This document shows positions 46,040-62,397 of a stretch of DNA of 64,000 nt, one piece after another; position 1 is the first letter of the stretch; the number at the start of each line of letters is the position of its first letter. The notes beneath the pieces are model-generated. The model worked only from the letters and a program-made list of their open reading frames with translations, was not told the DNA's origin and made no database searches. The translations under genes were made by a program, and so were the position numbers. This DNA comes from Porpolomopsis calyptriformis (Eukaryota; Basidiomycota; Agaricomycetes; Agaricales; Hygrophoraceae): assembly GCA_951640195.1 (NCBI GenBank), contig OX621165.1:1302001-1366000 (forward strand), given 5' to 3'.

Positions 46040-46158
46040 TGTTAGATGGCAGTCTAGGGTTGATCGCAAGGTTTTACTTCAGGCTCTGGGTGTAGGGTTT
46101 TAAAGGGCTAACAGACTACTGACTGGGGTGTTAACGAAAGAAACAGACTTATCCTAAG

Positions 46159-46583
46159 CACACTGGAAATTAAAAAATTTCAGTTGTACTGAAAACTAAA
46201 CTGAAACTTAAGATCTTGCTGTAAATTTCAGGACCACCAAAAACAGAATTGAAATTTAAAAAATGAGGATTTCTGAAATTTACACAGAAACTATATGAAT
46301 ACGTGCTGTTTTAGGGTGCACTGAATTTTTGCCTGACATTCAACATTTTAGGTATCTTGAAACTCAAAATGATAACTCAAGTTTCGGGACTAATTTTCCA
46401 ACTCCTGAAATCAAAAATTTCAGGCTGCCAGGAATTTATTGCCGAACTTCAAGTTTCTGTACTGATTTCGGACATGCCGAAAGCAAAAGTTCCGTCCCCA
46501 GCCTCAGAACTCCCGAAATGGATCCCGAAACTAATAGTTTCGGTGCACCCAAAACTAATCGCATGGTGAGCGTACGACAGGTG
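46159..46583 (+). repeat. left terminal inverted repeat of T3
   Basis: It is about 425 bases, matching 61732-62154 in reverse complement with roughly ten differences, all transitions by eye. The short motif TGAAATTT/AAATTTCA recurs many times on both strands within it, as expected for subterminal transposase-binding repeats. Confidence 0.9.
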
Positions 46584-46782
46584 TACGATCATCGCACGCT
46601 TTTACAGACTTACATTCTTACGAGTTACCATTATCAAAATCAATCTATTGAGGAAAAAATTCATAACAGTAGATAAATTCAACAGCGACTAAGGAATTCA
46701 CTAGCCAGTCCATCATTGGCTTTGGCAGTGAGAAGAGAGCTCCTCGTGAATTTCAAAGAGTGTTTCCAAACTGCTGGGCCCC

Positions 46783-49331
46783 TCAGATCTGCCTTCCCAA
46801 TCTTGATCTCGCCAAGGCATTTTTGAAACTACGACTCACAATCTTTGGACCAGTAGCCAACATTGAGACCCGAAATAAGCCAAGCTGAGGGTTTCGGCCA
46901 CCATGAAACGTCTGTCGTCTGATGTCCATGCTGTCTATCTCATTGGCCTGGAATATAGCTAGATTAAACTACGCGATTCATTGACAACAAACTTACCAGT
47001 GTCCACCTTATAGACGCTGCAGATTAAATTGACCTCATCGTCGGTCAATTGATCATCCCAGTAAGCTGATGGTGCATTTTTGTCCCAAAGACAAAACCCA
47101 TTCTCAAAGACCTCATCTGAAGGTCCATAGTATACCTTTTCATAATCAACGACCTCCCTAGCAAGACGAGCAACAATACCACCCATTAACATGGCTGCCC
47201 GCCCTCGTGCTGAACTGAGGAATCGATAACGGACAGCTTCATAAGCGGCATAGTCAAGGTTATCGGGTTTGTAACCTTGCGGGCGGTACCCGAGACCACT
47301 ATAACAGGGTACATACTTGGGTGGTGATGGCCGGAGAGGCTGGCCGCGGATGCAGGTGTTGAAAGAAATTCCCCTGTTCAGTAGCTGGTGCATTATTTCT
47401 ATGAGACCTGGGCCCCACTGGCGGCAGACAATTTCAATCACGGAGGCACCACTGGATAAAACCAATTCCAGCGGGGTTGCCTTTGCTTCCGTAGGTTTAG
47501 GCATAATGAAGTAGTATTGTTTGTCACCTAGTGTCTCACAGCGAACACTGATTTTCCATGGCTGGTGCGGAACAGTGTCATCTTGTCGAAGGTCATAAAG
47601 GTCCACGGGCATGCCATCTAGAGATTGGGCGGAAGTGAGATAGCCCATGAAAGTCGCCAAGGAATCTTTTACAGTTCCTGGCAAGTCAAGGGAATTGTCC
47701 TGCCAACCTTCACCTAAAACCTTTTTTACCGTTCCCCAGTGAGGTTTTGCCTTGGGATCCGCCACGCAGCCCATGGGAGTTAAGCCAAAGCGATAATATG
47801 CCAGGTCATCAAGGTAGTCGTCGAAATGAAAGACATGATCATCGGGATCCTGCCTATCATGGATACGCTGTAGATTAATGTTGGAGGAGTAGTCCCCCTC
47901 GCGGTGATCTGGAGGGTGGGGATCATCCTCGAGCAAGGGGGGGGGATCAGGAGCTGAAAAAGAGTAGGGGTCATCGTCGTTGTCATATTCATCATCAAGT
48001 ACTGGCTCATCGGTAGGGCTAAGCATTTGGCAGAGATCCCACTCATTACGGAACGAGTCATATCTGCATTGCTTTGGACCAAAATCTTCCCAGTAGGACT
48101 CGTAATTTTTGCGACCGGCTGCTCGGCGTATCAAGAAGCCATCTACATCCTCCCAGAAATAGACTCGTGTGCCTGCCTTCCCTGGTATATTACTGGTAGC
48201 CGCATGTGTGATTCGCTGGTTACGACGCTCTCTTTCTGCATCGGTTTCCCTCTCGGCCAATATTACATCGTGTGCTTCTCGGCGAGCGAAGAAGGATCGC
48301 CAGTCCTCGTCTTGCTTTTGACCACTGTATCTTTCAACAGGAGGGAATGGCAAAGGGGGCGCAGGATCAGGAGGGGCGGAGGGGACAGAAACATCGTTGC
48401 GAGGAGATCAGACATCAGAGGGGATAGCGAGAGGAGATTGGACATGAGGGGCAATAGTACTCATATCGGTAGGAAGATGGGGGGATGCTAATAGCCTGCG
48501 AAGATTGGCGAGGTCGCTATTAGTGGGGGCAAATTGACAAAGGTAGTCGGGCACATGGAGAGGTGTTTCGTGACCCCAGTAAAGATACAACGGCATGTTC
48601 ATTTGCCAAAGCATCAGTAGCATCCACTTGAACTGGCAAGTTGCCATATCGATGAACCCGCCAACTTTGGGAGTATTAAAGAAATCTCCTGCTACCGAAT
48701 ACTCCAGTTCAGCAAGCCATTGATGATGAATCCCTGTCTGTTCCAATACCCTTTCACACCAGTCGACGGTTGGGCGAATCGCTGATTCCCAGTCCATAAG
48801 CATGAACATGAACGAGACTGATGCGATGAGGGGGATAAATGCATCCCTCGATCGGGATGATATGAGTTCAACTTGCCGGCGGGTGCGATAATTCAGCATG
48901 TAGCCATACTGCGTTGGCCAGGGCCAAAAATGGAAGTAATCAGGAAGCCTTGCAGAGGAAATGTTGAGCATTGCGTAAAGTATCGCTTGTAGGTTTCACT
49001 CCAAAGTTGTCCACTCCAATTGAGCTGCAGTAGTGAGTGACCAATTCCTCTGGGAGTGACGTTGTATAATGGACAAGTTTTCATAGCGTAATCAATGGAA
49101 GAGAGTGCCGTAAAAGGGTTGATGGAGGGGGACTAAGAGCATGAACGGCACTTCGTTGTAGGGCCAGCCAATCTACCAAATTTTATCGAATATCATGGTC
49201 GAGGAAGGAGCAGGGGTGTCTTGAGGATGCGGCAGGTGGTTGAAGATCCTGACGTCGCCTTTGATGACAGTATACAGTTGGTCCCTGAAAAGAACATGAC
49301 GGCCATCGTAAGCGAAAGACTGAGAACCCAT
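46783..49331 (-). pseudogene. T3 leftmost gene, unknown 836-codon protein
   Basis: Exon 1 is 49331-46997 and exon 2 is 46958-46783, joined across a 38-bp intron (GTAAGT...CTAG) with correct phase. It starts MGSQSFAYDGRHVLFRDQLY. Midway it has a hydrophobic helical part (FIPLIASVSFMFMLMDW, KWMLLMLWQMNMPLYLYWGH), then a Pro-rich acidic linker, a charged segment (EAHDVILAERETDAERERRN) and a conserved-looking block (RVYFWEDVDGFLIRRAA, CRYDSFRNEWDLCQML). The rest includes KPHWGTVKKVLGEGWQDNS, DLYDLRQDD and, near the end, MDIRRQTFHGGRNPQLG. Four in-frame stops break it: three TGA and one TAG, the TGAs at plausible Arg positions, for example 48410-48408. No known domain is recognised. It is probably a cargo gene of this transposon type. 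Confidence 0.75.
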
Positions 49332-49440
49332 CTGAAAGGGAGCGTATCAGAAAAGCTGTGTGCAGGAAAGGAATTGGGAAAACTTACAATTTCAGAGAGA
49401 TGATCGCGAGGTCTGAAATGTACAAATCGACAGCAGGAGT

Positions 49441-49870
49441 GAAAGATCTGATTGGTGTTAGAACACCTATTAGACTGGTAGGATTGTGATAGAGTCCAAT
49501 TGGCGTTAGAACGCCTATTGGAGGATTATGGGTGTTGGTTTAAAGGAGATGCTTGGCTTTGTTTGCAGGAGCGCTGTCCTAAGCGTAAGCAGGGTTTGAA
49601 TTATAAATCCACGTGAGCCCACCTGTTGCGATCTGGTGTGCTGCACATCGTTCAACGATGTGCAGAGCTAACCTTGCACAACGTTCTAACGATGTACAAG
49701 GCAACTCTCATATATCTCAGACACTGTTCTAACGGCGTCTGGGTGTTCAACAACTCTGTAGTTTCAGTCTCATGTTATTTATGCCAGTGGTCTCTCCTCC
49801 TTCGCACCTTTCAATCTTGTCCAGGGCTGAACTCTTCAATACTCCTAAAAGCTGTTCTAACAGCATCTAG
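49441..49870. repeat. left cluster of GTT-AAC palindromes in T3
   Basis: Six inverted repeats share a centre of GTT, one or two bases, then AAC: 49454-49467 (GGTGTT/AACACC), 49502-49515 (GGCGTT/AACGCC), 49641-49665 (perfect 12-base arms CTGCACATCGTT/AACGATGTGCAG), 49672-49701 (14-base arms, 12 matching), 49718-49741 and 49851-49864 (GCTGTT/AACAGC). The rest of the 830-bp gap between the first two leftward genes (49332-50159) shows no gene. Confidence 0.75.
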
Positions 49871-50159
49871 GCACAGCTAGTTTTTGTCTGCTAGCCAATG
49901 TGGTTTGTCGTTTCTCGGAGAACTATCAAATATTCAAGATGCAGATAGATCATCTTGTAAGTGTCCTTCTACCATCCCATTCTCCGCAAATCAGATTTTG
50001 ACTTTGGGTTGGCAAGCCAGTGACCACCAGCGTGTTCAAATTCGCCGCCATGATTCTCATTTGTCATTGTCCCCTGCTTTCCCATATTCTTTCGTTCCTA
50101 GTAAGTCTTTCGTGAATGGCTCATTCAACTTCCGTTGTAATAATACAATTTCGTCCATA

Positions 50160-52727
50160 TCAGATATTCGCTGTAGCCAGTACCAGAAGCTCAAAAGCTT
50201 CCTCAGACACACATAGTTCATCCATAACATAGAATGGTCTCTCCCTCTCCTGCACCTCGAGCCATTCTGGATTGTACATCTTCCGTGGAAGATTTGTTGC
50301 CACCCTCGATCTCCCAGGCGAGATAGTTCTGATCCTAGGAGCGGTTTTAGCCCCCTTTGTGCCACAAATTCCGGGTACCTCCCCAGCCTTGTCAATCATT
50401 CTGAGATAGTCACCTATCTCCTCCGCTCACCATACACACAACTTCACACGATACACAGCCATTGTACGGTTACCTATCTTCTCAGTATCAGCCTCTTCAG
50501 ATGACATACCCCCGACAGATAGCTTATTGAGGATTTCTCGGAAGTATTCCCACATGGAGAGATCGATAGCATGTTGGCTGGCTTTAATTTGGATCACCCT
50601 CTCCATGATGTCGGCACATTTATCATGCTTCTGTCACTAGGTTAGTACCTTATGGTTGTCTCATACAGATAGTGGACTTACTCATTTCCAAAGTGACCTA
50701 CCGCTTACATCTGCCATCCACCTTTTGGAATACGCTTGAACACGTGTTGCGACCTGCGTAGGTGTCTTGATCTCACCACTCGCAGGTAAGAAACGGGGCT
50801 GAACCAGTGCCCAGGCTTCTTGCGATCTCTTAAGCTGGCCCCGTAGTTCTCCCATGACATAGTCCTTGGAAACATCAGGAAGACCCCAGCCTCCCTGTTC
50901 CTCGCACATAGCCTGTAGGATATCGCAAATTTTCTTGAGGATTAGGTTGTTCCATCGAGAGTTGGTGTAGCCGTGGCCAAAGTAGAGCCTCAGGTCTTCG
51001 CTAGGTCCATTCCCCCCTCCGATGTTGCAAGCTTCAACGTCATCTTCATCCGCAGGCACGTAGGATGCAAAGTCATTAGCTCCTGTTGTGTGGAATATGT
51101 TCTTCCATATTTCGCGTATTGCTTGCTGCAGGCAGATCAGCCAAGTGAACCCATCAGCGGAATAGCTGCTATTATGTACCTTCCACCAATGATCTTGTTC
51201 TGAGCTGATGAGTGCCTGCTGAGCTTTGATTGCCATCACCCTGGACCTTCTCGAGTTCGCGCCCTTCGATCTTCTGCAGGCGCCCTCAGCTATTATCTCC
51301 CCTTGACCCAACCTTCTCAACACCTCTTCCACGATCAACTTCACCATTTCAATAGACTGGGGATCTTGCGGATCAAATCTTAGGACTTCGTCTGGTATTG
51401 CAGAATCCGCTGCTGGAGTCGCTGGATTCACCGTCATAGGAGGAGCTGGCTGCAGGGGCACAGTGGGGAGTGTACTACCCTGACTTTTGAACAAGCGATC
51501 TGCAGCTTGGAGATTTCGGGCGGCTCGCACAACCGGCGTGACAAACCGTGGAACTCCTTGCAGTGGGCCTTTTGGGAAACTTTCTTGTGCTACCTGGGGG
51601 ACAGCTCTGGGGGAAGATGTTGCCGCAGAATGGTGCTTTCGAGTCAAGTGTCAGCTATAGGAAAGTTAGAGATGAAATCCAAAACCCACTTGGTGGCACT
51701 GCCTCATTGTCATAATTTCATTCGTTTTGTTGCTCTATAGAAGTTGTTATTTGCAGGCGACCAACACACGTGAAAACTTGTTACCATTGCTTTCTCAAAT
51801 TCTATACGCAATGCATCCTTCTCTCGTTCCTGGTGGGTCCCGGTGTCAACGACTGTCTATGTGCAATGCACAATGCGCAAATCACTTACGAGCTCGCCGT
51901 TGACATCTCGTAGCTGTTCAATGTGGGTTTCGTACTCCAGCAGCTGCTCCACAAGCTGCCTCTCAGTGTCATTGTTGCGGTCGTCAGTCTGGGCCATATT
52001 CGTATTCTGTTGCAGCGTTTGCGATTGAGTTTCAAGTTCTCGATTGAACTGTTCACGAAGTAGCGCCATCTGCTACTGCCATGCTTCTCGTTCCTGCTTC
52101 ATAGTGTCCTGGGCTTGCTGGAGGTGCCGTGACATTTCTTGCAGTCGACTACTTTCTTCCTTCCGCTCGTTAGCCACTAATGTTACCCTCTTTTTGTGAT
52201 AGCGGGCATCTTCCACCACCTAAAAGACACGTGAATAATTCTGGTGCTTTTTAAAAAATAGCCAGCTCACTTGATCATATCGAGCACGCGAAGGTCCTGC
52301 TACAGCATGCCTTTTGGATTGCAATGTACCTCTTTCTATTACGTCCTGAGGTCATATCAGTTAACCGAACCATGCCATATATATGATTCATACATACTTA
52401 GTGGTCATGTTGCGTATCATCTGAGGCTGCGGCATACTCTCCTGGCATGGATTGCAAACGTTTACTGTTATCTCTGCTGGCGCTGTTGTGCCGAGAGTCT
52501 TGTGCAGATAACGGCCAAGTATCTGACATTTGCGTGGATGAGCTTGACTTTCCTAGGCTGGACGAAAGGATTAACGGATAGGGTGAATCAGTGGGGGATA
52601 CTACCTGGGTGTCGGTGCCAGTCTCTGGTGTTGGAACACCTGAGACAAGGAAGGATATGGTTCTGGAAGACGCACGCACCTCATCTATTTGAGGTCTCCC
52701 GATTCCTGCGTCATCAGATTCCTCCAT
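50160..52727 (-). pseudogene. T3 second leftward gene, multi-exon coiled-coil protein
   Basis: It starts at ATG 52727 (MEESDDAGIGRPQIDEVRAS). Exon 1 is Ser/Thr rich and ends at 52398. Later exons give ERGTLQSKRHAVAGPSRARY, VVEDARYHKKRVTLVANERK and a coiled coil (LQEMSRHLQQAQDTMKQERE, MALLREQFNRELETQ, LEYETHIEQLRDVNGEL). A large exon (51644-50682) has TRKHHSAATSSPRAVPQVAQ, HWWKVHNSSYSADGFTWLIC, DEDDVEACNIGGGNGPSED and YSKRWMADVSGRSLWK. After a 51-bp intron the last exon reads HDKCADIMERVIQIKASQHA, GGMSSEEADTE, AEEIGDYLRMIDKAG and ends ANI at 50160. Stops lie at 52398, about 52072, 50684-50682 and 50429-50427. The exact joins between 51850 and 51644 are uncertain. No catalytic motif is seen; such proteins recur near basidiomycete transposons as far as I recall. 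Confidence 0.7.
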
Positions 52728-52948
52728 TGTTCCAATGGCTTCAGTAATCCATTGTCCTCACTCCTTTTCATTGTCCCAGACATGGCAAATCATAGATCGG
52801 CCAATCATTGCAGCATTGCGATTCATTCCTGCCTGCTACGTGCAACTCATAGATTGGCCGATCATTACAATGCATACCATTCCACCGACTCTGCTTGGTT
52901 TGCATAGCATATTCATTGTCTGATTGGTTACGCTACTACTGTTTCTAA

Positions 52949-53650
52949 TTAGTGTCTACGCCTGATCTGGGTTGAGCAGATCTCAATCTCCTGGGGGAGA
53001 CGCTTCCTTGGGCAATTTTGTAAGCGTCGAAGCAAAGGCGCAACTCTATACACCATGATCAGTTGTGCCCACCTTTCAAATGGTGACTTACTGTTTGGCT
53101 ACATGGTCAGCCAACCGTGAATCAGATCCTCGCATATTTACAACTGAGTCCTTATTTCTGGAAGCAACCCTCATGACGACAATGCTACCTTGCATCTTGA
53201 GACTGCGATTAATGGGAAGTAATGTATGCCTCTTGAAGAATATGCGAAAAGTGGTACTTGATCGATGCTTCTTGATGCGGACATACATATTGTGGATATA
53301 CGATTGAACCTTCAAGTGATCTAGAACACTTTCGATGCAAGGGTAGCGGGAAGTTTGTGGATTGGATGACGAGCATCGTGTATGAACCAAAAGGTTCATT
53401 GGGGAGGCGGATCCAGCTTCATACAGTCGGCTACGAAGAAAGATGTCGTTTGCCTGAAACATGGTCATCAGTTCCACTAATGTCTGCAAATTATTCAAAT
53501 ACTCACCTGGGACGAGTGTGGGATGAATAGACGTTGATTAACCATAGTAAAGAGTCGATGTTCAGCCGGCTGAGTGTGTTGATAGGTGAGAGATGCCCCG
53601 ACGATCTTTGACGCATTCTTATGTAGGAAGGAACAATGACAATATAACAT
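52949..53650 (-). CDS. T3 third leftward gene, unknown 200-residue protein
   Basis: Exons 53650-53507, 53453-53092 and 53045-52949 join in phase (603 bases) with no stop. It starts MLYCHCSFLHKNASKIVGAS and has EHRLFTMVNQRLFIPHSSQ, a helical Arg/Lys-rich middle (YVRIKKHRSSTTFRIFFKRH) and the end RLADHVAKQVAPLLRRLQ. Introns are 46-53 bp with GTGAGT/GTAAGT donors. It is basic, with no signal peptide or clear membrane span, and the family is unknown. It is one of only two T3 genes that are still fully open here. Confidence 0.7.
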
Positions 53651-53729
53651 AAAGCATCGATATTTTTCTCAATTTATGTATTTGGCGATGAAACAATAAA
53701 CATTATATGTTACAATCGGGCGTGCGAAC

Positions 53730-55200
53730 CTAACGGCGATGGGTCCTGGAGCTGATCCGATTAGTAGCGGTATTCTTGGCTGTAGACCCCTTTAATACGG
53801 CGGAGCTGTACTTCAGCTGGGCGATGAGCATGAGGTCAAGAGGCCAGAGGCTGTCGTACTCATCCAGGACAGGGAATTCAGCTACCATCTAAAGGAAGAG
53901 GTCAGCATGAAGTCTGAGGGTATGTAATATTCTTACCTGTGCCCTGACCTGGTCAAGCCAACCTTTATCTTGGTTGGTGAAACACTCTGATTTATTCAGG
54001 TGTTGAGAAATATAAAACTGAAGGCGATTCTGAACAACATGTTAGGGATGGATTGGAACAGTGGATGTAAAATAGAAAGCCGACCTTAACATCTTCTACA
54101 AAGGCTACCTCCCAATTCAGGAGTTCACGCAATGGCTTCCATCCTGCTCCCTTTGGCCTAGGTATCTTGATTGTTGCAGGGGTCGGTCGTGAGGATGCAA
54201 AAGTGAGATGGCGAGAATTGTCCAACAGTGGGAGATCGGGATGCTCGCTCTCAGCCCCATCAGAGGTCTCTTCATCTTCAGATGGTCCAGGTGAGCTCAA
54301 CGGGCTACTCTTCGCACGGGAGGATGGAGGGTGAGGTGTGGCATCTCGGTGATACGTCTGCTTCGTGTATGAGAACCGAACACAGAACAAGGTGCGAGGA
54401 CGACTATAAAGAGTCTCGACACAGTCTATGATCGATGATCGTGGAAAGGAAGTCTTCGATCGTTCGCGAACGAGATCAATCGGGGAATCAGAAGGATCGG
54501 GAAGTCGAAAGAGGAAGTCTTAGAAGATCTAAAGAGGATCTAGACTCGAGAGCGAGAGAGAAGCGAATATCTAACTTGTTTTATCACTAGCTACAACATA
54601 CAGTATATATATCTTCTAGTACAAGGATCCCTTTGAGTGTATATGATAAAAGGGGAGCCTCTCTAATGATCTAAGGGGAAAGTAGTGAATAGGAATGAAG
54701 GAATCGAATGAAAAGGGAGAAATAGAAGAGATCAGATGCCTTTGAATAGTGTCTTCCCTTTGATATACAAACTTTCATTCGTGTTCGGAAAGCTTCGATC
54801 GCGTTCGGAGCGTTCGATGATTCTCGAAGTCGTTCGGGACGTTCGGGAGCTATCGGGAGCGTTCGGAGGGTTCGAGTTCGTATTCGAAGGACTTGATAGG
54901 CGTCTAGTATTCGTATAGTTGAATATACGGTGCTCAGGGGATGGAGGGGTCGTATCATCGGTCTCGACGATTTTCTCCCTCACTGTTTCGGGATGAGCGA
55001 TAAGGATGAAAACGAAGTTCAGGGGTGGGGGACAGTTGGCGAGATGCACCCAGATGACTGCCCGTGAGATCTTCATGTGCCAGCAGAGACTGACCATCGC
55101 CAACATCACCAACAAGATCCGTAGCGCACAATAAAACAATCATCGGGCGGGGAGGAGGAGCAATCAAAGCAAAAGGAGGAATAGACTTGGACGTCGCCAT
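53730..55200 (-). pseudogene. T3 fourth leftward gene, split by a solo G LTR
   Basis: It starts at ATG 55200 (MATSKSIPPFALIAPPPRPM) and reads to ENRRDR, where a 608-bp solo G LTR (54350-54957) is inserted. With LTR and one TCGG copy removed it continues in frame (DATPHPPSSRAKSSPLSS, EHPDLPLLDNSRHLTFASS, GWKPLRELLNWEVAFVED). Two further exons follow, 54029-53937 (NRLQFYISQHLNKSECF) and 53888-53730 (MVAEFPVLDEYDSLWPLDL, ending SSRTHRR). The total is 251 codons without any other stop. The family is unknown. Its start is 195 bp from the divergently oriented WD40 gene, suggesting a shared promoter. Confidence 0.72.
54350..54957 (-). repeat. solo LTR of the G family (608 bp) inside a T3 gene
   Basis: It reads TGATACGTCTGCTTCG to GGTCGTATCA on the plus strand, reverse to the G LTRs. 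TSD TCGG on both sides (54346-54349 and 54958-54961) is four bases long, as for element G. Confidence 0.93.
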
Positions 55201-55395
55201 CGAGGTAATCGCGAGGATGGTGAGATAGTTTTGGGTGCAGAAAAGCGATCGGATTCATATAAGGAAATCAATTAGAGCATGTGTCATGCTCATATGTTAT
55301 AATGGGATAGTAGAGTCCGCCATTGTTAGTAGTGCCCACCATTGTTGGCACGGCGTTAAAATTCAGACATCGGGATTTTTTTAAGTAGTGTTAAA
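55201..55395. promoter_or_regulatory. divergent promoter region of T3
   Basis: These 195 bases separate two genes transcribed outward. I see no clear TATA box. The position alone suggests a bidirectional promoter. Confidence 0.35.
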
Positions 55396-56927
55396 ATGAC
55401 CCAACCCCCATCTTCACTGAACGGTAAATACATCCTCAAAGGTACCCTGAAAGCACACCGCGGCGCCATTTTATGTTTCGGTTCAACGGACGATGGTAGG
55501 ATCCTTGCCAGCGGAGGTGAATATCCAAAACCATTCCCCTTATTTGTGCTAATACAATTACAGGAACCGACGGCATGAGGTTGTGGAATATCCTGACGAT
55601 GAAGGCCATAGACTGTCCAGGTGGCGCAGGAATGAGAGGGGCTACTACTGCTGTTGTGTGGATTAGACGCGAGGATGAACCCGATGAAGCGTTGTTTTAT
55701 GGAACACAAAATGGCTATCTTGTTTGCTGGAAGCAAATGAAAAACGGGCGTGGTTCTGTGAGTGCTCATCTTCTGTGTAGGTTTCGGTGTTCATGGATTA
55801 CCAGGCATCATTTGAGGAGCTGCACTGTGTACAGCTCGCCAAGCCTGGAGAAATCACTGGACTTGCATTCAATGCGGCATCAAACCACCTCGTTGTCTGC
55901 AATCGTAATTCAGTTGTACAATTATTCACTATAGATGGGTTGATGAAACCGCGTGCCATCTTCTCTGTCACCATTGAGAACTTTCTCCCAAAGGCGATCA
56001 CATTCGGCCATATGAATGGAGACACAAGAGAGGTATTGACTTTCGGACTCCACGGTGGTCAAATGTGAGCCTTACTTTCTCTCTACTGCTGTAACCTGAT
56101 ATCCAAGTATTCGCAGACACACCTTGCAAGGAAGCGATGGGAAGATTGAGCATACCCGAACTATCGGGGGAATGATGTACATTGGTTGAGATGCTGAATT
56201 CTGTTCTACGTTTACACATTCATGCTCAGAGGGGATGTGGCGGTGAACGCGAGGAAAGGTGTCTTCTGCATTGATGAGCCTTCTCAAGGGGTGGCTCTCT
56301 ATCGGCTGGATACAGGGATGCGAATTCGCACATTCCCCATACCTATTACACGATCGCAAAGGCCCCGACAAGTGTCCTTCGCAGAAGACTGCAGCATCAT
56401 CGTCAGTGGTAGCAATCACGGAGTTGTCTATGTTTTTGACAGGAGAGGCGGCGCTGTATTAGATAAACTGAAGATGGATCCAGATGATTGGATTCAGACC
56501 ATTACGGTGAGAGAGGTTGTCTAGTAAACTCCCAACTAAGACAATTCCAGGCAATGGACGTGAACGGCACCCCAGTCATTCTTGCCGCGAAGTCAAGAGA
56601 CATTGGTGGAGATAACGATATCTTCGTCTGGAAAAAATGTGTGAACAAACGTCCGGAACATGATAATCGGGCTTCTAGTCCCACCTGGAACAGCTTGCGT
56701 ATCGCGTGTCAGATTCTCATGTTCTTAGCTTCAGCCGCCTTCGTCTACCAAAACCTTAAGGTATGATTCCATCCGCACAAGGAAGGTTCTCCTGATGAAC
56801 TGTCAAACAGGTCAGTGCATCTTGGGAAATAGAACATATGGGTCGCAAGATTTTGGATAGGGATTGGCTTGCTGAGAGCCGCATTGCTGATGGGGATAAT
56901 TGGGATAAATTCAGGGTCTGGGGATAA
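55396..56927 (+). CDS. WD40-repeat protein with C-terminal membrane segment, T3 cargo
   Basis: Seven exons (55396-55516, 55564-55757, 55805-56064, 56108-56176, 56230-56506, 56551-56760, 56811-56927) join in phase to 415 residues without a stop. Introns are 43-53 bp, all GT-AG. WD40 blades are visible as GTLKAHRGAILCFGSTDDG ending MRLWNI, EITGLAFNAASNHLVVC, RRHTLQGSDGKIEHTRTIGG and ITRSQRPRQVSFAED with GSNHGVVYVFDRR. Near residue 360 a hydrophobic run (IACQILMFLASAAFVY) predicts one membrane span, followed by a charged tail (DNWDKFRVW). WD40 propellers bind other proteins. The membrane anchor is unusual for a transposon product. The gene lies between the T3 inverted repeats and is intact while most neighbours are broken. 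Confidence 0.85.
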
Positions 56928-57081
56928 GGAATGTCTAGACACGGTTAGAACCACCTCTAGAAATGAGAGTGGCGATAATAGCAATGATGGTGGAATATCA
57001 GGCGCTGACAGTGATGACGCACAAACTTGAAAGCGCAGACTGCCGAATCGATAGGCCATTAGCAAGGGATCTAGCAGCACC

Positions 57082-57660
57082 TGCACAGCGTTGAACATTG
57101 TGCACGCAGGAATGGCAGAGCACTTCACAACTTTGAACATTGTGAAGGGATGAGAAAAGTGTAAGAGGAGGAATAGCAAAGCACTTCGCAATGTTGAACA
57201 TTGTGAAGCGTGGAAGGAAGCAGTTACGCGCTGTTGCAGATTGTTACACTTTGTTATGCTTTCTGTTTGTTCTTGTTCCTGATGCTTACGCTCTCATCAA
57301 TTAAAGCTCCGCTTGTGCAAAATGCTCCTCAAAGCCTAACAACAACTAACAAGTTCTATACCCACCCTTGAAGTTTCCCATCTGCCCCATCTTGTTGGTG
57401 TTCAATGCCAACAAGACTGCTTCTCGAAGTCTAACAAATTCCCACCCACTCGTCTGCCCCATCTTGTTAGCGTTCAATGCCAACAAGACTAATTCTCGAA
57501 GCTAACAAGTTCTGCCCACCCTTGTAGTCTCGTCCGCCCCCTCTTGTTAGCATTCAACTCTAACAAGACTGATTCTCAAAGCCTAACAAGTTCCGCCCAC
57601 CCTTGAAGTCTCTTTATATCACATCTCATCAAACCCTTGTTAGTGTTCAACGCTCACAAG
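57082..57660. repeat. right palindrome cluster and tandem array upstream of the T3 transposase
   Basis: Three hairpins centred on GTTGAAC or TTTGAAC (about 57082-57104, 57122-57147 and 57182-57206, arms such as CTTCGCAATGTT/AACATTGTGAAG) are followed by four copies of CTTGTT-x-x-x-x-TT-C-AA-x-x-x-x-AACAAG at 57391-57415, 57463-57487, 57543-57567 and 57636-57660. These four sit in an imperfect tandem repeat of 72-93 bases with shared filler (CTAACAAGTTC, GCCCACCC, TTCTCGAAG). A possible TATA (TTTATATC) is at 57611-57618, about 110 bases before the transposase start. No gene is seen in 56928-57724. Confidence 0.78.
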
Positions 57661-57724
57661 TTCATCCTCCCCTTTCATCTCTCATTGTCGTTCCCAAATC
57701 TTTATAGTCTGGTATTCCTCAGGG

Positions 57725-60700
57725 ATGAAGCAGTATTATCTATGTCAATGCGAACTCCAGGATAACGAACACATGGTCCCCAAATCTGAAAGACTTGCTC
57801 ACAACCTTGTGCTGCAGCTGAAGGCATCCGAGGTGGGTTTCTAATGCTATATATCCCTCCCGGCTAATTCACTCAACCCCTCTTAGAATTCGTCCCTTGT
57901 CGACTTGATGAAAGCCTTAATGGTGACAGACAAGCCTGAGACCAATGTAGTATGTGTTCCTCAGTCCTTTTCACCTTATTTTTTGAATAACAATTGCTTC
58001 AGGATGCAGATTGCTCAATTTCTGATAGCAAGCTCACTGATTTAATGACAGCCGTGACCCTCACTGATGATGCCTCTAATGTGACTGAGCAGCCAAGCAA
58101 GCTGTGGGCCTCTCGCACCAAGTTTCAACAGTCCAGGGCTGCCCATTCGGTGATTGGGGGGAGTATTCCCGTTGGCGAGCTAGAACACAGTGTCCAGGCA
58201 CTTCTCCTCAATCCACCTCCCTTTATCAGTACTCCTCCGCATTCCCAACCTGCTCGCCACAATCCACTTCCCTTTATTAGGACTCCTGCGCATTCTTCAC
58301 CAGCTCGCTTTTCTGCTTCGACTATACCCCCCGCCACTCCCAAACAAAACCCCTCTGCTCTTATGAGCAAACCTGTTGGGGTGGTTGTCAGGAAAGCTCT
58401 TAATATCATTGCAAAGATTGAGGAGGAGATGCTTGCCATTGGCCCCACACTCATTGTACCACATGACATCGATTATGGAGATGTCGCCCAAGTTTTTCAA
58501 ATGCGGGCACAACTGGAGGCAGCTGCAGCCCATGTTGACGCCACTGAGCAATCCTTAAAATGCATCCGATGCTCGGAACGGGAGGTCCTTGCTCATATAG
58601 ACACTGTGGTCACCTTGTTGAAAGAGATGGACGCTCATCTCAGTTTCTTAGGAGCCGCTTTGCCTTCGCTGCCTGAGACTAAACCCATCTTTTTCGATGC
58701 GAGTACGTTTTGTCCATCACCACTGCTTGGCATTTTTAAAAATATACTGTGTCCTTAGCTCATATCTACGAAAATCCCATAGAGAGGTTAGACTTGATCG
58801 CTCAACTAGCAATATTGTTGGGAATTGTGTGCAACGTGATAATGGGCATCAGCACCAAGCCGTGTAACTTTATCATCGGCGTGGTGATGCTCATAGTGAA
58901 AATGGCTATGGCTACGGTATCTATGAAGGGAAATGAAGAATACGAACGTTACATTTTCAACCAGCTGCCAACAAGTTTGTACACTGCCCTGAATCGGTTC
59001 AACATCGATGGACAGACCACAATCTATGCTGTGTGTCCTGAGTGTAACTACACATACAAACCTTCTTGTGCCAGTTTCAAGGCTAGCTACCCTACTCGAT
59101 GCACCAATCGTATACTGGGACCCTCTGGATCTAGTATATGTCATACAGAGTTGCTTGAAAATCGTCATGGCTGTCTCCGGCCATTGAAGCCATTCCTTGC
59201 GGCATCTTTTACAGACTATCTTGCCCGATTGATGAGTAATGCTGACATTGAGCGCCTTTGCGACAAAGCCTGCGATGACGCTGTGAACGCTCTCAAGGAG
59301 CCTCCTGATCTGGACGTGACGAATATCTTCCATGCTGAGTTCATGAAAACCTTTGAAGGTCCCGCCCCAGGAAAATTGTTCATTGACAGAGGGGATAGGG
59401 TTCACTTGGCATTTGCCATACAAACTGACTTTTTCAATCCGAATGGCACCAGAATGCATGGGAATCACGACTCGATCAGTATCATCTCCCTGGTCAATCT
59501 CAATCTTCCCGTTTCAATTCGCTACAAGCTAGAACACTTATTTTTAGCGGGTATCGTACCAGGCCCCAGGGAACCTGAGAAGGAAGAGATTTCGTATTTC
59601 TTGCGACCAGTCATTGATGAATGTGTCATTGCGTGGAAACCGGGAATTCATGTCTCCAAAACTGCGTCTTGTCCTGAACAAGGTCGTGACGTTGAAGTAG
59701 CGATCGTTCTCTCTGTCAATGATCTGCCTGTGGCCTGCAAGGTATCGGGGAATGCAGGTTGTCGGTCTGACTTTTACTGCACTGCCTGTTGTTGTTACGG
59801 CCGGGAGACTATGTATCGTAGCGACTTCTGCAATTGGGAACCAAGAAATGGATCAGAAATGCGTCGGCAGGCTGAAGTGTGGCAGCATGCTCAGACTTCC
59901 AAAGAGAGAGATGTCATCTTTACCCAGTATGGCGTGCGATGGTCTGAGTTCTGGAGACTACCCTACTGGGACCCCTCACGGATGCTTGTAATTGACAGCA
60001 TGCATTGCATTCTTGAGGGTCTGGTCCATTATCACTGTCGCTATGTCCTCCAACTTCATGCCAAGCAAGCAATGACCAAGGACTCCGTAGTTCCTGCGTT
60101 CCTCTATCCCTGGACACAGTATAGTCTGAATGTACCTCCAGAATATCGTATCAAGCACGAGAGGGAGATAAAGCAGATTTCAGAGATTCACTCGATATTA
60201 GTTCTGCCCTTTAATAGTGGTGCAGGATCGATCACCTCGGATGAGCTGATGGTTAAACTCCTCAACAAAAATTTACCTGCTCTCAAATTCATTTGCTACT
60301 CTCTTGATCTGCAGATGAAGGTTGTATGCCAGCAGGGAAAGATAGTCCCTGCGCAAACGAAAAGACATTTCGCAAGTCTGCTGATAGACTGGGTGAGTCG
60401 AAACGCCATCTTCATTCGTAACAACTCTAACATATATTCTGCAGTGTCATACCATGCCTCTGACCTCTGTTACCTTCCTTCCTAGAGTCACCACCCCTGA
60501 AACCATCAAGTACATCCAACGAGTAATCAAGGAGACCTTAACGCCCTCCTGGATCAATTCTGTGCCCACCAATTATGGTGAGAACTCTGCAGGCACCATC
60601 AAGGCTGATGAATGGCGCACTTTGAGCACGGTGTACCTTCCGATAGCCCTTGTCACCTTGTGGGCAGGAAAGGGTGACAAGCGGCCAGAAGAGCGCTTGC

Positions 60701-61535
60701 ATTTCGCTGCCATTTTAGACCATACGATGACACTATTTCAAGCAGTTAATATCATTTGTCGATATACTATGAACCTCCAACATGCAACGGCTTATCGCAA
60801 TCTTATCAAACAATGGGTTGATGGTTTGCATATGCTTCACCCACACACAATGAATCACGCGCGCCAGCCAAATGTCCATGCTTCCTTCCATCTATACGAC
60901 TACATCCTCCTCTTTGGACCTGTTGTCTCCTGGTGGTGTTTTCCCTTTGAGCGTCTGATTGGCACATTGCAGAAGATTAAGACCAACAATCAGATTGGTG
61001 GTAAGTATTATTATTTATTCATGAAGTTGGCGTATTTATTGTTGACATTATGCTAGGTGAAATGGAAGCGACCATCACGAAGTCGTACATGAGAGGAGCA
61101 AATCTTCGGAGGTGGTTGAACAAACCAGGATGCCCTGAGATCATACGACAATTCAAACGCCTTTTTGATAAGTCCTTTTCCTCTCAGGGCTAAGTAGATG
61201 GGAATGATGACCGGGACAAGGTGCAGTCAGAGCGTGCTTACTACAAACACAATGATATCATTTTTTCCCGTTCCTCAACACATCTTGGCAACAGTCTTAT
61301 TTTGTACTATCCTACAAATTCTTCAACAACGCCAATTGCTGGGAGCATTCAAAAGATAGAGACCATTAACAACCAGGTGTTCTTTTTTGTCAAGCGCCAA
61401 ACTCCACTTCCCCCAACCCAATCGGATCCGTTTTGTCAATACACGTTCTTTCCTGCCACAGTTTATTCCTTGAAGATAGATGATGGGCCTGATGATGTGA
61501 TTGATCCACAGTCAGTGGTGTCTCATATAGCATGA
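57725..61535 (+). pseudogene. Tnp2-type transposase of T3 (CACTA-like), nearly intact
   Basis: Exons 57725-57832, 57887-57949, 58003-58702, 58759-60392, 60445-61000 and 61057-61535 join in phase to 1,179 codons. The N-terminal 270 residues are linker-like (Ser/Pro repeats, then a coiled region). The body carries a zinc-like CPECNYTYKPSC and the Tnp2 core: LAFAIQTDFFNPNGTRM, IPVSIRYKLEHLFLAG (here NLPVSIRYKLEHLFLAG), IVPGPREPEKEEISYFLRP, CRSDFYCTACCCYG, WSEFWRLPYWDPSRMLVIDS with MHCILEG. The C-terminal half has FHLYDYILLFGPVVSWWCF and FERLIGTLQKIKTNNQ. One in-frame TAA at 61191-61193 precedes a tail that stays open and family-like (RAYYKHNDIIFSRSSTHLGN, VAGSI-type repeat) to TGA 61533-61535. 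Whether the TAA ends a functional enzyme or is a nonsense change (CAA to TAA) is unclear. The enzyme would cut at the T3 inverted repeats. Confidence 0.85.
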
Positions 61536-61731
61536 TTCGAGTATTCTTCTGAATGTGCTGTCGTTGTAAATCTATCAAGGATATAGGTAGATTTATGAAC
61601 ATGTATTTATGTAGCTCTAATTGTAATCTTTCGTTTATTTGAGAATGTAAGAACAGTAGCGTATGATGATCGTACGCCTCTCGCACGCTTGTCGGACGCC
61701 TGTCGTACGCTTGTTGGAGGCCTGTCGTACG

Positions 61732-62154
61732 CTCAGCGTACACTCACCATGCGATTAGTTTTGGGTGCACCAAAACTATTAGTTTCGGGATCCGTTTCGG
61801 GAGTTCCGAGGCTGGGGACGGAACTTTTGCTTTCAGCATGTCCGAAATCAGTACAGAAACTTGAAGTTCGGCAATAAATTCCTGGCAGCCTGAAATTTTT
61901 GATTTCAGGAGTTGGAAAATTAGTCCCGAAACTTGAGTTATCATTTTGAGTTTCAAGATACCTGAAATGTTGAATGTCAGGTAAAAATTCAGTGCACCCT
62001 AAAACAGCACGTATTCATATAGTTTCTGTGTAAATTTCAGAAATCCTCATTTTTTAAATTTCAATTCTGTTTTTGGTGGTCCTGAAATTTATGGCAAGAT
62101 CTTAAGTTTCAGTTTAGTTTTTAGTACAACTGAAATTTTTTAATTTCCAGTGTG
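61732..62154 (-). repeat. right terminal inverted repeat of T3
   Basis: It is the near-identical counterpart of 46159-46583. Just inside it (about 61670-61740) lies a tandem run of GCGTACGACAGGC-type units of about 22 bases that is reduced to one unit on the left side. Confidence 0.9.
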
Positions 62155-62397
62155 AAGTCTATCTACTGCTAGCTTTATATACTAGCTAAGTATGAGTCAT
62201 ACTGACTACATGTGAGTCGTAACGACTATGGATGAGTCATGTAGATAAGGAGAGTGATAGTAGACTAAATATAGATATGGCTTGGTCACCTTCTATCACT
62301 AAGCAGAGCTTGGGTGGCTAAGCGGCTATTGATGTAAACTGTCTGATGTAAATGGGAATAGACAAGCAACGGAAAAAGAAAAAATATATCTCTGACA

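Follow-up and report, generated by a model that had tools for sequence, protein, structure and literature searches.

A 16-kb CACTA/EnSpm-type transposon of Porpolomopsis calyptriformis that probably is a decayed copy from a fungal group with a six-protein element-borne set

Do six genes located between the ends of a single DNA transposon form a conserved set that belongs to the element, or are they a random collection of captured sequences? The question is raised by a 64,000-nucleotide (nt) stretch of the Porpolomopsis calyptriformis genome (assembly GCA_951640195.1, contig OX621165.1; the entire stretch is denoted the window), in which a transposon of the CACTA/EnSpm type occupies positions 46159-62154 (approximately 16 kb). 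CACTA elements are usually described with one or two genes. The six-gene content of this element, noticed in an initial annotation, is confirmed here, and the proposal that the genes comprise a conserved unit is well supported. The element itself is probably a decayed copy from a fungal CACTA/EnSpm group that has a Tnp2 transposase and a set of six element-borne proteins. Positions without a prefix are those of the window, and C-numbers denote contigs of the same genome.

The limits of the element are firm. The left terminal inverted repeat (46159-46588, forward strand) starts with CACACTGG and is 97% complementary to the right repeat (61725-62154, reverse strand), which terminates in CCAGTGTG. 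Both arms are 430 nt long, and 14 of the 15 sites at which they differ are transitions. The arms are flanked by a 3-bp target duplication, AAG (46156-46158 on the left and 62155-62157 on the right). Two relatives of the target long terminal repeat (LTR) that lack the insertion (C12:765560-765822 and C5:1597785-1598129) align through the junction, and the overlap of these empty-site alignments is exactly 3 bp, as the duplication predicts, which fixes the limits and implies that the insertion was into an LTR. The initial delimitation by long inverted repeats, an AAG duplication and a restorable target LTR thus stands. Three hallmarks of the CACTA/EnSpm type are present, namely inverted-repeat termini of the form CAC...GTG (also in a distant element on C6, CACTCC...GGAGTG), target duplications within the 2-3-bp range (AAG in the window and AAT, AGT and CTT in related elements on C4, C12 and C6, respectively), and a Tnp2-type DDE transposase.

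Comparison of the reading frames with a copy on C4 that is approximately 70% identical supports six genes, here denoted A to F, of which A, B, C and D are directed leftward, in agreement with the four leftward genes annotated initially, and E and F rightward. Gene F (57725-61535, plus strand) encodes the transposase, with five conserved blocks and one in-frame stop at 61191; the assignment to Tnp2 is borne out by a match to PF02992 (Transposase_21) at 52.4 bits (cut-off 28.6), and a CTAC stretch is visible. Gene E (55396-56927, plus strand), with seven exons in the model, is open and encodes a WD40-type protein of 422 residues in which a hydrophobic span begins at about residue 362 and is followed by a tail of about 40 residues, as expected of the WD40 protein with a C-terminal membrane span described previously. 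Taken alone, this protein shows weak similarity to WD40 proteins and is close to Agaricales proteins named WD40. A 23-nt GT...AG stretch at 55758-55780 is needed to maintain the frame of gene E and, if it is an intron, is unusually short.

The remaining genes are all on the minus strand. Gene A (46962-49331), which adjoins the end opposite the transposase and is read outward, is a single continuous frame of about 790 codons that contains four in-frame stops. Gene B (50163-52733, ends approximate) consists of several exons, the main one being 50685-51650 (322 codons), with at least two in-frame stops, and its middle part appears, by eye, to be coiled-coil-like. Gene C (52949-53545) is open and encodes 165 residues in three exons under the splice model; the fully open leftward gene reported initially is therefore retained, at less than the 200 residues then assigned to it. 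Gene D (53733-55200, ends approximate) has at least three exons and is broken by a 608-bp LTR-like insertion (54350-54957; TGATACG...CGTATCA, with TCGG flanks) that is absent from the C12 copy. The start codons of the divergent genes D (55200) and E (55396) are separated by a 195-bp spacer (55201-55395), precisely the centre between two diverging arms that had been noted.

Domain scans of the element covered ten reading frames, including the main frames of all six genes; for the four frames scanned against NCBIfam, nothing was found. Genes A and C gave no family or fold match in Pfam and PDB. For A, 31 alignment rows gave no Pfam match, and the protein database gives PF28437.1 for two A relatives. 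Structure prediction, suggested initially for the four leftward proteins, was run with AlphaFold2 on relatives: the model for a gene A relative is fair and has no fold match, and that for a gene C relative is poor, of low confidence and beta-rich. The product of gene C is predicted to be a small beta-rich protein.

Three close copies carry most or all of the set. All six genes are present in the C4 copy (C4:1514193-1529313), between its own inverted repeats, and in the C12 copy (C12:736067-773976), which extends over 38 kb owing to nested insertions. The copy that starts at C1:2612562 contains A, E, D, C and B; neither F nor the right arm was found there. In the C4 and C1 copies, the four-gene block made up of B to E lies in the opposite orientation between A and F (or the expected place of F), and inspection of the block edges for repeats revealed nothing that would account for the inversion. 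As a side observation, another Tnp2 match (C12:753829) is located inside the 38-kb span of the C12 copy.

The genes appear to be maintained as proteins. The ratios of nonsynonymous to synonymous substitution rates (dN/dS; Nei-Gojobori method, window versus C4 copy) are 0.19 for A (781 codons), 0.23 for B (559), 0.12 for C (130), 0.22 for D (168), 0.12 for E (379) and 0.14 for F (1116). When the same alignments are read in the +1 and +2 sense frames, dN/dS is 0.85-1.65, and two of the antisense frames give 0.84-2.21. Random capture was rejected as the principal explanation given that the true-frame ratios lie far below those of the +1 and +2 frames. It is unlikely also because the six genes recur at about 70% identity with low dN/dS and five of them recur in a distant element on C6.

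This C6 element (C6:1006443-1022235) has inverted repeats of 443 nt at 85% identity, and its F protein, identified by protein search, is 33% identical to that of the window over the main stretch. Profile searches, the E-values of which refer to the small set of frames from that stretch, identified A (leftward, E = 1.1e-22), E (leftward, E = 5e-15; P0117-P0127 were excluded from the E profile) and C (leftward, E = 1.3e-12), as well as B (rightward, E = 4.2e-11), the latter only after the 3' exon was added to the profile. Another element, C9:1181428-1192412, contains A, B, E and F in the same order as in the window, between inverted repeats that are 97% identical over at least 323 nt. We also observe a second A-C-F family, with stretches of 97-98% identity among C9:286020-300778, C1:3808398-3823282 and C6:1006443-1022235.

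Across the genome, the companions of the transposase mostly occur near one group of Tnp2 transposases. The group of transposases resembling F was defined by search score, not by a tree, and includes 17 of the 29 F matches, which collapse into 13 loci (the 12 weaker matches were excluded); the A matches (21, at 13 loci) and the 11 C matches were counted in full. An F-group gene lies within 30 kb of 9 of the 13 A loci and 8 of the 11 C loci, and an A gene accompanies 9 of the 11 C loci. When 13 and 13 loci were placed at random 20,000 times, at most four A loci fell near F, compared to the nine observed. In all nine A-F pairs, the two genes point apart and are the outer genes. Among the Tnp2 matches of the genome (50 of the 58, those above the Pfam cut-off, were counted), a companion (A, C or E) is found within 30 kb of 10 of the 13 F-group loci versus 3 of the 37 other loci, and one of these three falls inside the span of the C12 element. 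As judged from these sequence matches, the companion set follows one transposase group. Companions residing in the genome as single-copy host genes, which the initial annotation had named as grounds for abandoning a conserved unit, are not evident as intact genes here, except for a weak, generic WD40 match of E to C4:2355239 (E = 1.9e-4), a 750-codon open frame that is probably an ordinary host WD40 gene.

Relatives in other species were sought among 5.8 billion proteins. Of 7,996 candidates scored for gene A, 30 are relatives (E <= 1e-3); ten of these carry a species name, including Arthromyces matolae, Mycena, Lentinula edodes, Armillaria ostoyae and Pleurotus ostreatus. Gene C has seven (E <= 0.01), two of which are named (Agrocybe pediades and Rhodocollybia butyracea), and gene E has 89 (E <= 1e-10), mostly from Mycena, with the best match in Hypsizygus marmoreus (52%). 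Wherever species names are given for the A, C and E relatives, these are Agaricales. A 19-residue stretch with a mean Kyte-Doolittle value of at least 1.6 is found within the last 110 residues of 56 of the 89 E relatives; among the remaining 33, some have such a stretch further inside and some are partial. As to the co-occurrence of the genes in the same order in related basidiomycetes, a check proposed initially, the evidence bears on co-occurrence and not on order: identical contig sizes within one species were noticed for C and E of Rhodocollybia butyracea (129,835) and twice for A and E of Mycena venus (43,830 and 2,679,734). We read these as pairs on the same contig, the 2,679,734 pair being weak evidence in view of the large contig. 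When the lists were compared by eye, such a match with an E relative from the same species was seen for three of the 12 relatives of A and C that bear a species name, and for none of the other nine. Relatives of F, A and C were sought in viral contigs and none was confirmed; a search for gene A relatives in bacterial and archaeal genomes returned none.

The window copy appears to be decayed. Genes C and E are open, as indicated above, in contrast to A, B and F, which contain stops, and D, which is split by the insertion. A comparison of the window copy with the C12 copy over aligned pieces of at least 400 columns, with 46 gap columns set aside, covers 15,081 sites and yields 646 differences. 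Of these, 23 are transversions and 623 are transitions; 447 of the latter are C/T changes preceding a G or G/A changes following a C in the window sequence. This pattern fits methylation-linked deamination or a process resembling repeat-induced point mutation, and decay dominated by transitions explains the stops without a special genetic code. The possibility that the stop codons of gene A (three TGA and one TAG) are read as residues was considered and rejected: the C12 copy has sense codons at all four positions, and the differences are almost all transitions.

Several observations weigh against a tightly conserved six-gene unit or limit how it is to be read. Gene order varies among the copies, given the inversion in C4 and C1 and the order A, E, C (leftward), B, F (rightward) in the C6 element, so that the claim of a common order fails. 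Beyond the window and the three copies nearest to it, no match to D was found. The initial interpretation is supported in part: the set behaves as a unit of the element, and its order is not conserved. The first B profile, made from the main exon alone, gave nothing significant in C6 (best E = 0.16), the C6 copy of E, which is decayed, shows no recognisable membrane span, and the search for C in the C9:1181428 element was negative. With respect to selection, one antisense frame per gene also yields a low dN/dS (0.19-0.36), which is expected where third codon positions coincide; with dS at 1.3-2.1 and thus close to saturation, the exact ratios are soft, and the contrast with the shifted sense frames is clear; and C-to-T decay is evident from the stops and the window-C12 differences. 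The locus counts are not independent because the copies are related, as in the case of the C9, C1 and C6 elements that share nearly identical stretches. Four of the 13 A loci, including the lone matches C7:539936 and C1:2853992, have no F within 30 kb. Transposase copies devoid of companions, the other finding that had been named as contrary to a conserved unit, occur in part, at 3 of the 13 F-group loci (C14:1347164, C9:1383221 and C9:882030, with no A, C or E detected within 30 kb) and not at the other ten; these three loci may be truncated, or their companions may be too diverged. Together with the lone A matches, they are what speaks most against strict dependence. Finally, none of the copies in this genome was demonstrably intact, and the activity of the element is unproven.

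Among the alternatives to an element-borne set, the one that survives best, and which we still consider improbable, is that the companions are cargo that benefits the fungus, for example in self/non-self recognition or stress, with selection acting through the host, as has been proposed for the cargo of Starships. The low dN/dS of the companions would be compatible with such a role, as would the involvement of WD40 proteins in many host pathways; however, most matches in this genome occur together or near an F-group transposase, and the association with a single Tnp2 group fits a function in the element better. Slightly less probable still are two superimposed units, a CACTA element of two genes, A and F, and a B-C-D-E module that entered this element and is capable of flipping or moving on its own, as might be suggested by the inversion of this block as one piece in C4 and C1, by the outermost position of A and F in the nine A-F pairs and by a site near 1.50 Mb on C12 that is shared by C and E and lacks A. 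However, repeat searches in the window element found no pair of inverted repeats bounding the block, and in C6 the block is reshuffled rather than moved whole. It is very unlikely that the companions are mere passengers, that is, host genes or fragments captured as in Pack-type elements and devoid of a role in the element, despite the capture of host genes by CACTA and other plant transposons, the commonness of WD40 proteins in hosts and the weak match of E to the likely host gene on C4, given that dN/dS is low for all five companions, at the level of the transposase, that four of the five are kept at about 30% identity in C6, that no evident single-copy host source was found in this genome, and that C and E are complete and contain introns in the models.

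If the six genes belong to the element, what could they do? The roles of A to E proposed here are guesses, and we regard them as doubtful. The transposase F would cut and join the CAC...GTG ends. A would be a second transposition protein, analogous to TnpA, which might bind subterminal or promoter repeats and shape the end complex; it is the best candidate for this role because it is divergent from F in all nine pairs, is the largest companion in the present reading and has relatives in Agaricales. B, C and D would assist or regulate it. E could act as a propeller scaffold tethered to a membrane, possibly that of the nuclear envelope or endoplasmic reticulum; its service to the element would lie in localisation, in escape from silencing or in movement from one nucleus to another. 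C-to-T decay, mostly at CpG, appears to be the response of the host and would have broken the window copy.

Short repeats near A and F are possible binding sites. Seven copies of CTTGTTAG are found in both orientations upstream of F, within 298 bp (57346-57643), and five copies of GTTAGAAC, also in both orientations, upstream of A (49457-49861), with a sixth at 56944. The motif CTTGTYAG has 12 matches in the whole window compared to 5.3 expected, and none of 100 shuffles reaches 12. We further note that the CTTGTTAG and GTTAGAAC octamers have GTTAG/CTAAC in common and that, in the C4 copy, GCTGACAA is present upstream of both genes, in four copies at F and one at A. A hairpin-like palindrome of 25 nt, CTGCACATCGTTCAACGATGTGCAG, is located upstream of A (49641-49665), and similar 22-mers are found upstream of F (57081-57205).

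In the broadest form, one could propose that an Agaricales-wide CACTA group has evolved a six-protein system of mobility and survival that includes the unmatched families A and C together with a beta-propeller anchored in a membrane, which the element itself would use, for example in nuclear-envelope placement, escape from methylation-linked decay or passage between the nuclei of a shared mycelium. We consider this proposal tenable, if not quite probable. A DNA transposon that retains a membrane-anchored protein would be unusual. Since selection can be estimated on six genes, it becomes possible to ask what a DNA transposon needs besides a transposase. The findings also suggest that, among the mushroom genes annotated as 'hypothetical' or as WD40, some may belong to transposons, which would alter the counts of host gene-family expansions; the genera concerned, those with A, C and E relatives, are Mycena, Armillaria, Lentinula, Pleurotus, Hypsizygus, Agrocybe and Rhodocollybia.

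Several known systems resemble this element in some respects. Starships are likewise large fungal elements with a gene set; they lack terminal inverted repeats and depend on a tyrosine-recombinase captain. The identity of the window element as a Starship was rejected because it has long inverted repeats and a Tnp2 transposase and because no captain domain was detected in the ten scanned frames. Plavaka, a related transposase group of mushrooms, is suggested by a weak PF18759 match, and was also rejected given that this match (14.5 bits) is below the cut-off of 26.3 and that Tnp2 is the clear match. Plant En/Spm encodes TnpA and TnpD. The window element is similar to the plant En/Spm/CACTA elements in its CAC-type termini, 3-bp duplication, Tnp2 transposase and, in the simplest view, two element proteins (here A and F). 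It differs in that A gave no Pfam match, A and F are divergent and located near opposite ends, four extra genes are present and the repeats are 430 nt long.

With regard to precedents for the gene set itself, titles and the openings of abstracts, in a literature that lacks most subscription journals, describe no WD40-bearing or six-gene fungal CACTA element, and the available portions of PMC6431247, PMC8290104 and PMC6416283 do not mention one. Within that literature, we encountered neither a fungal set of these six genes nor its low dN/dS, the two families without a match or the membrane WD40 partner. The closest fungal counterparts appear to be EnSpm elements with CAC..GTG termini and 3-bp duplications, some of which carry a TET/JBP dioxygenase gene according to PMC12730594; the termini, the duplications and the presence of an accessory gene are shared, whereas the companions in the window are A to E instead, and no TET/JBP domain was found in the ten scanned frames, which represent part of the frames of the element. 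In size and enlarged gene set, the window element is comparable to EnSpm families of the red alga Chondrus crispus, which are 16-20 kb long with 4-5 open reading frames (ORFs) (Kojima et al. 2013, as cited in PMC6431247), so that multi-gene CACTA elements are not new as a kind. In the present case the host is a fungus, and conservation and low dN/dS were measured for six genes.

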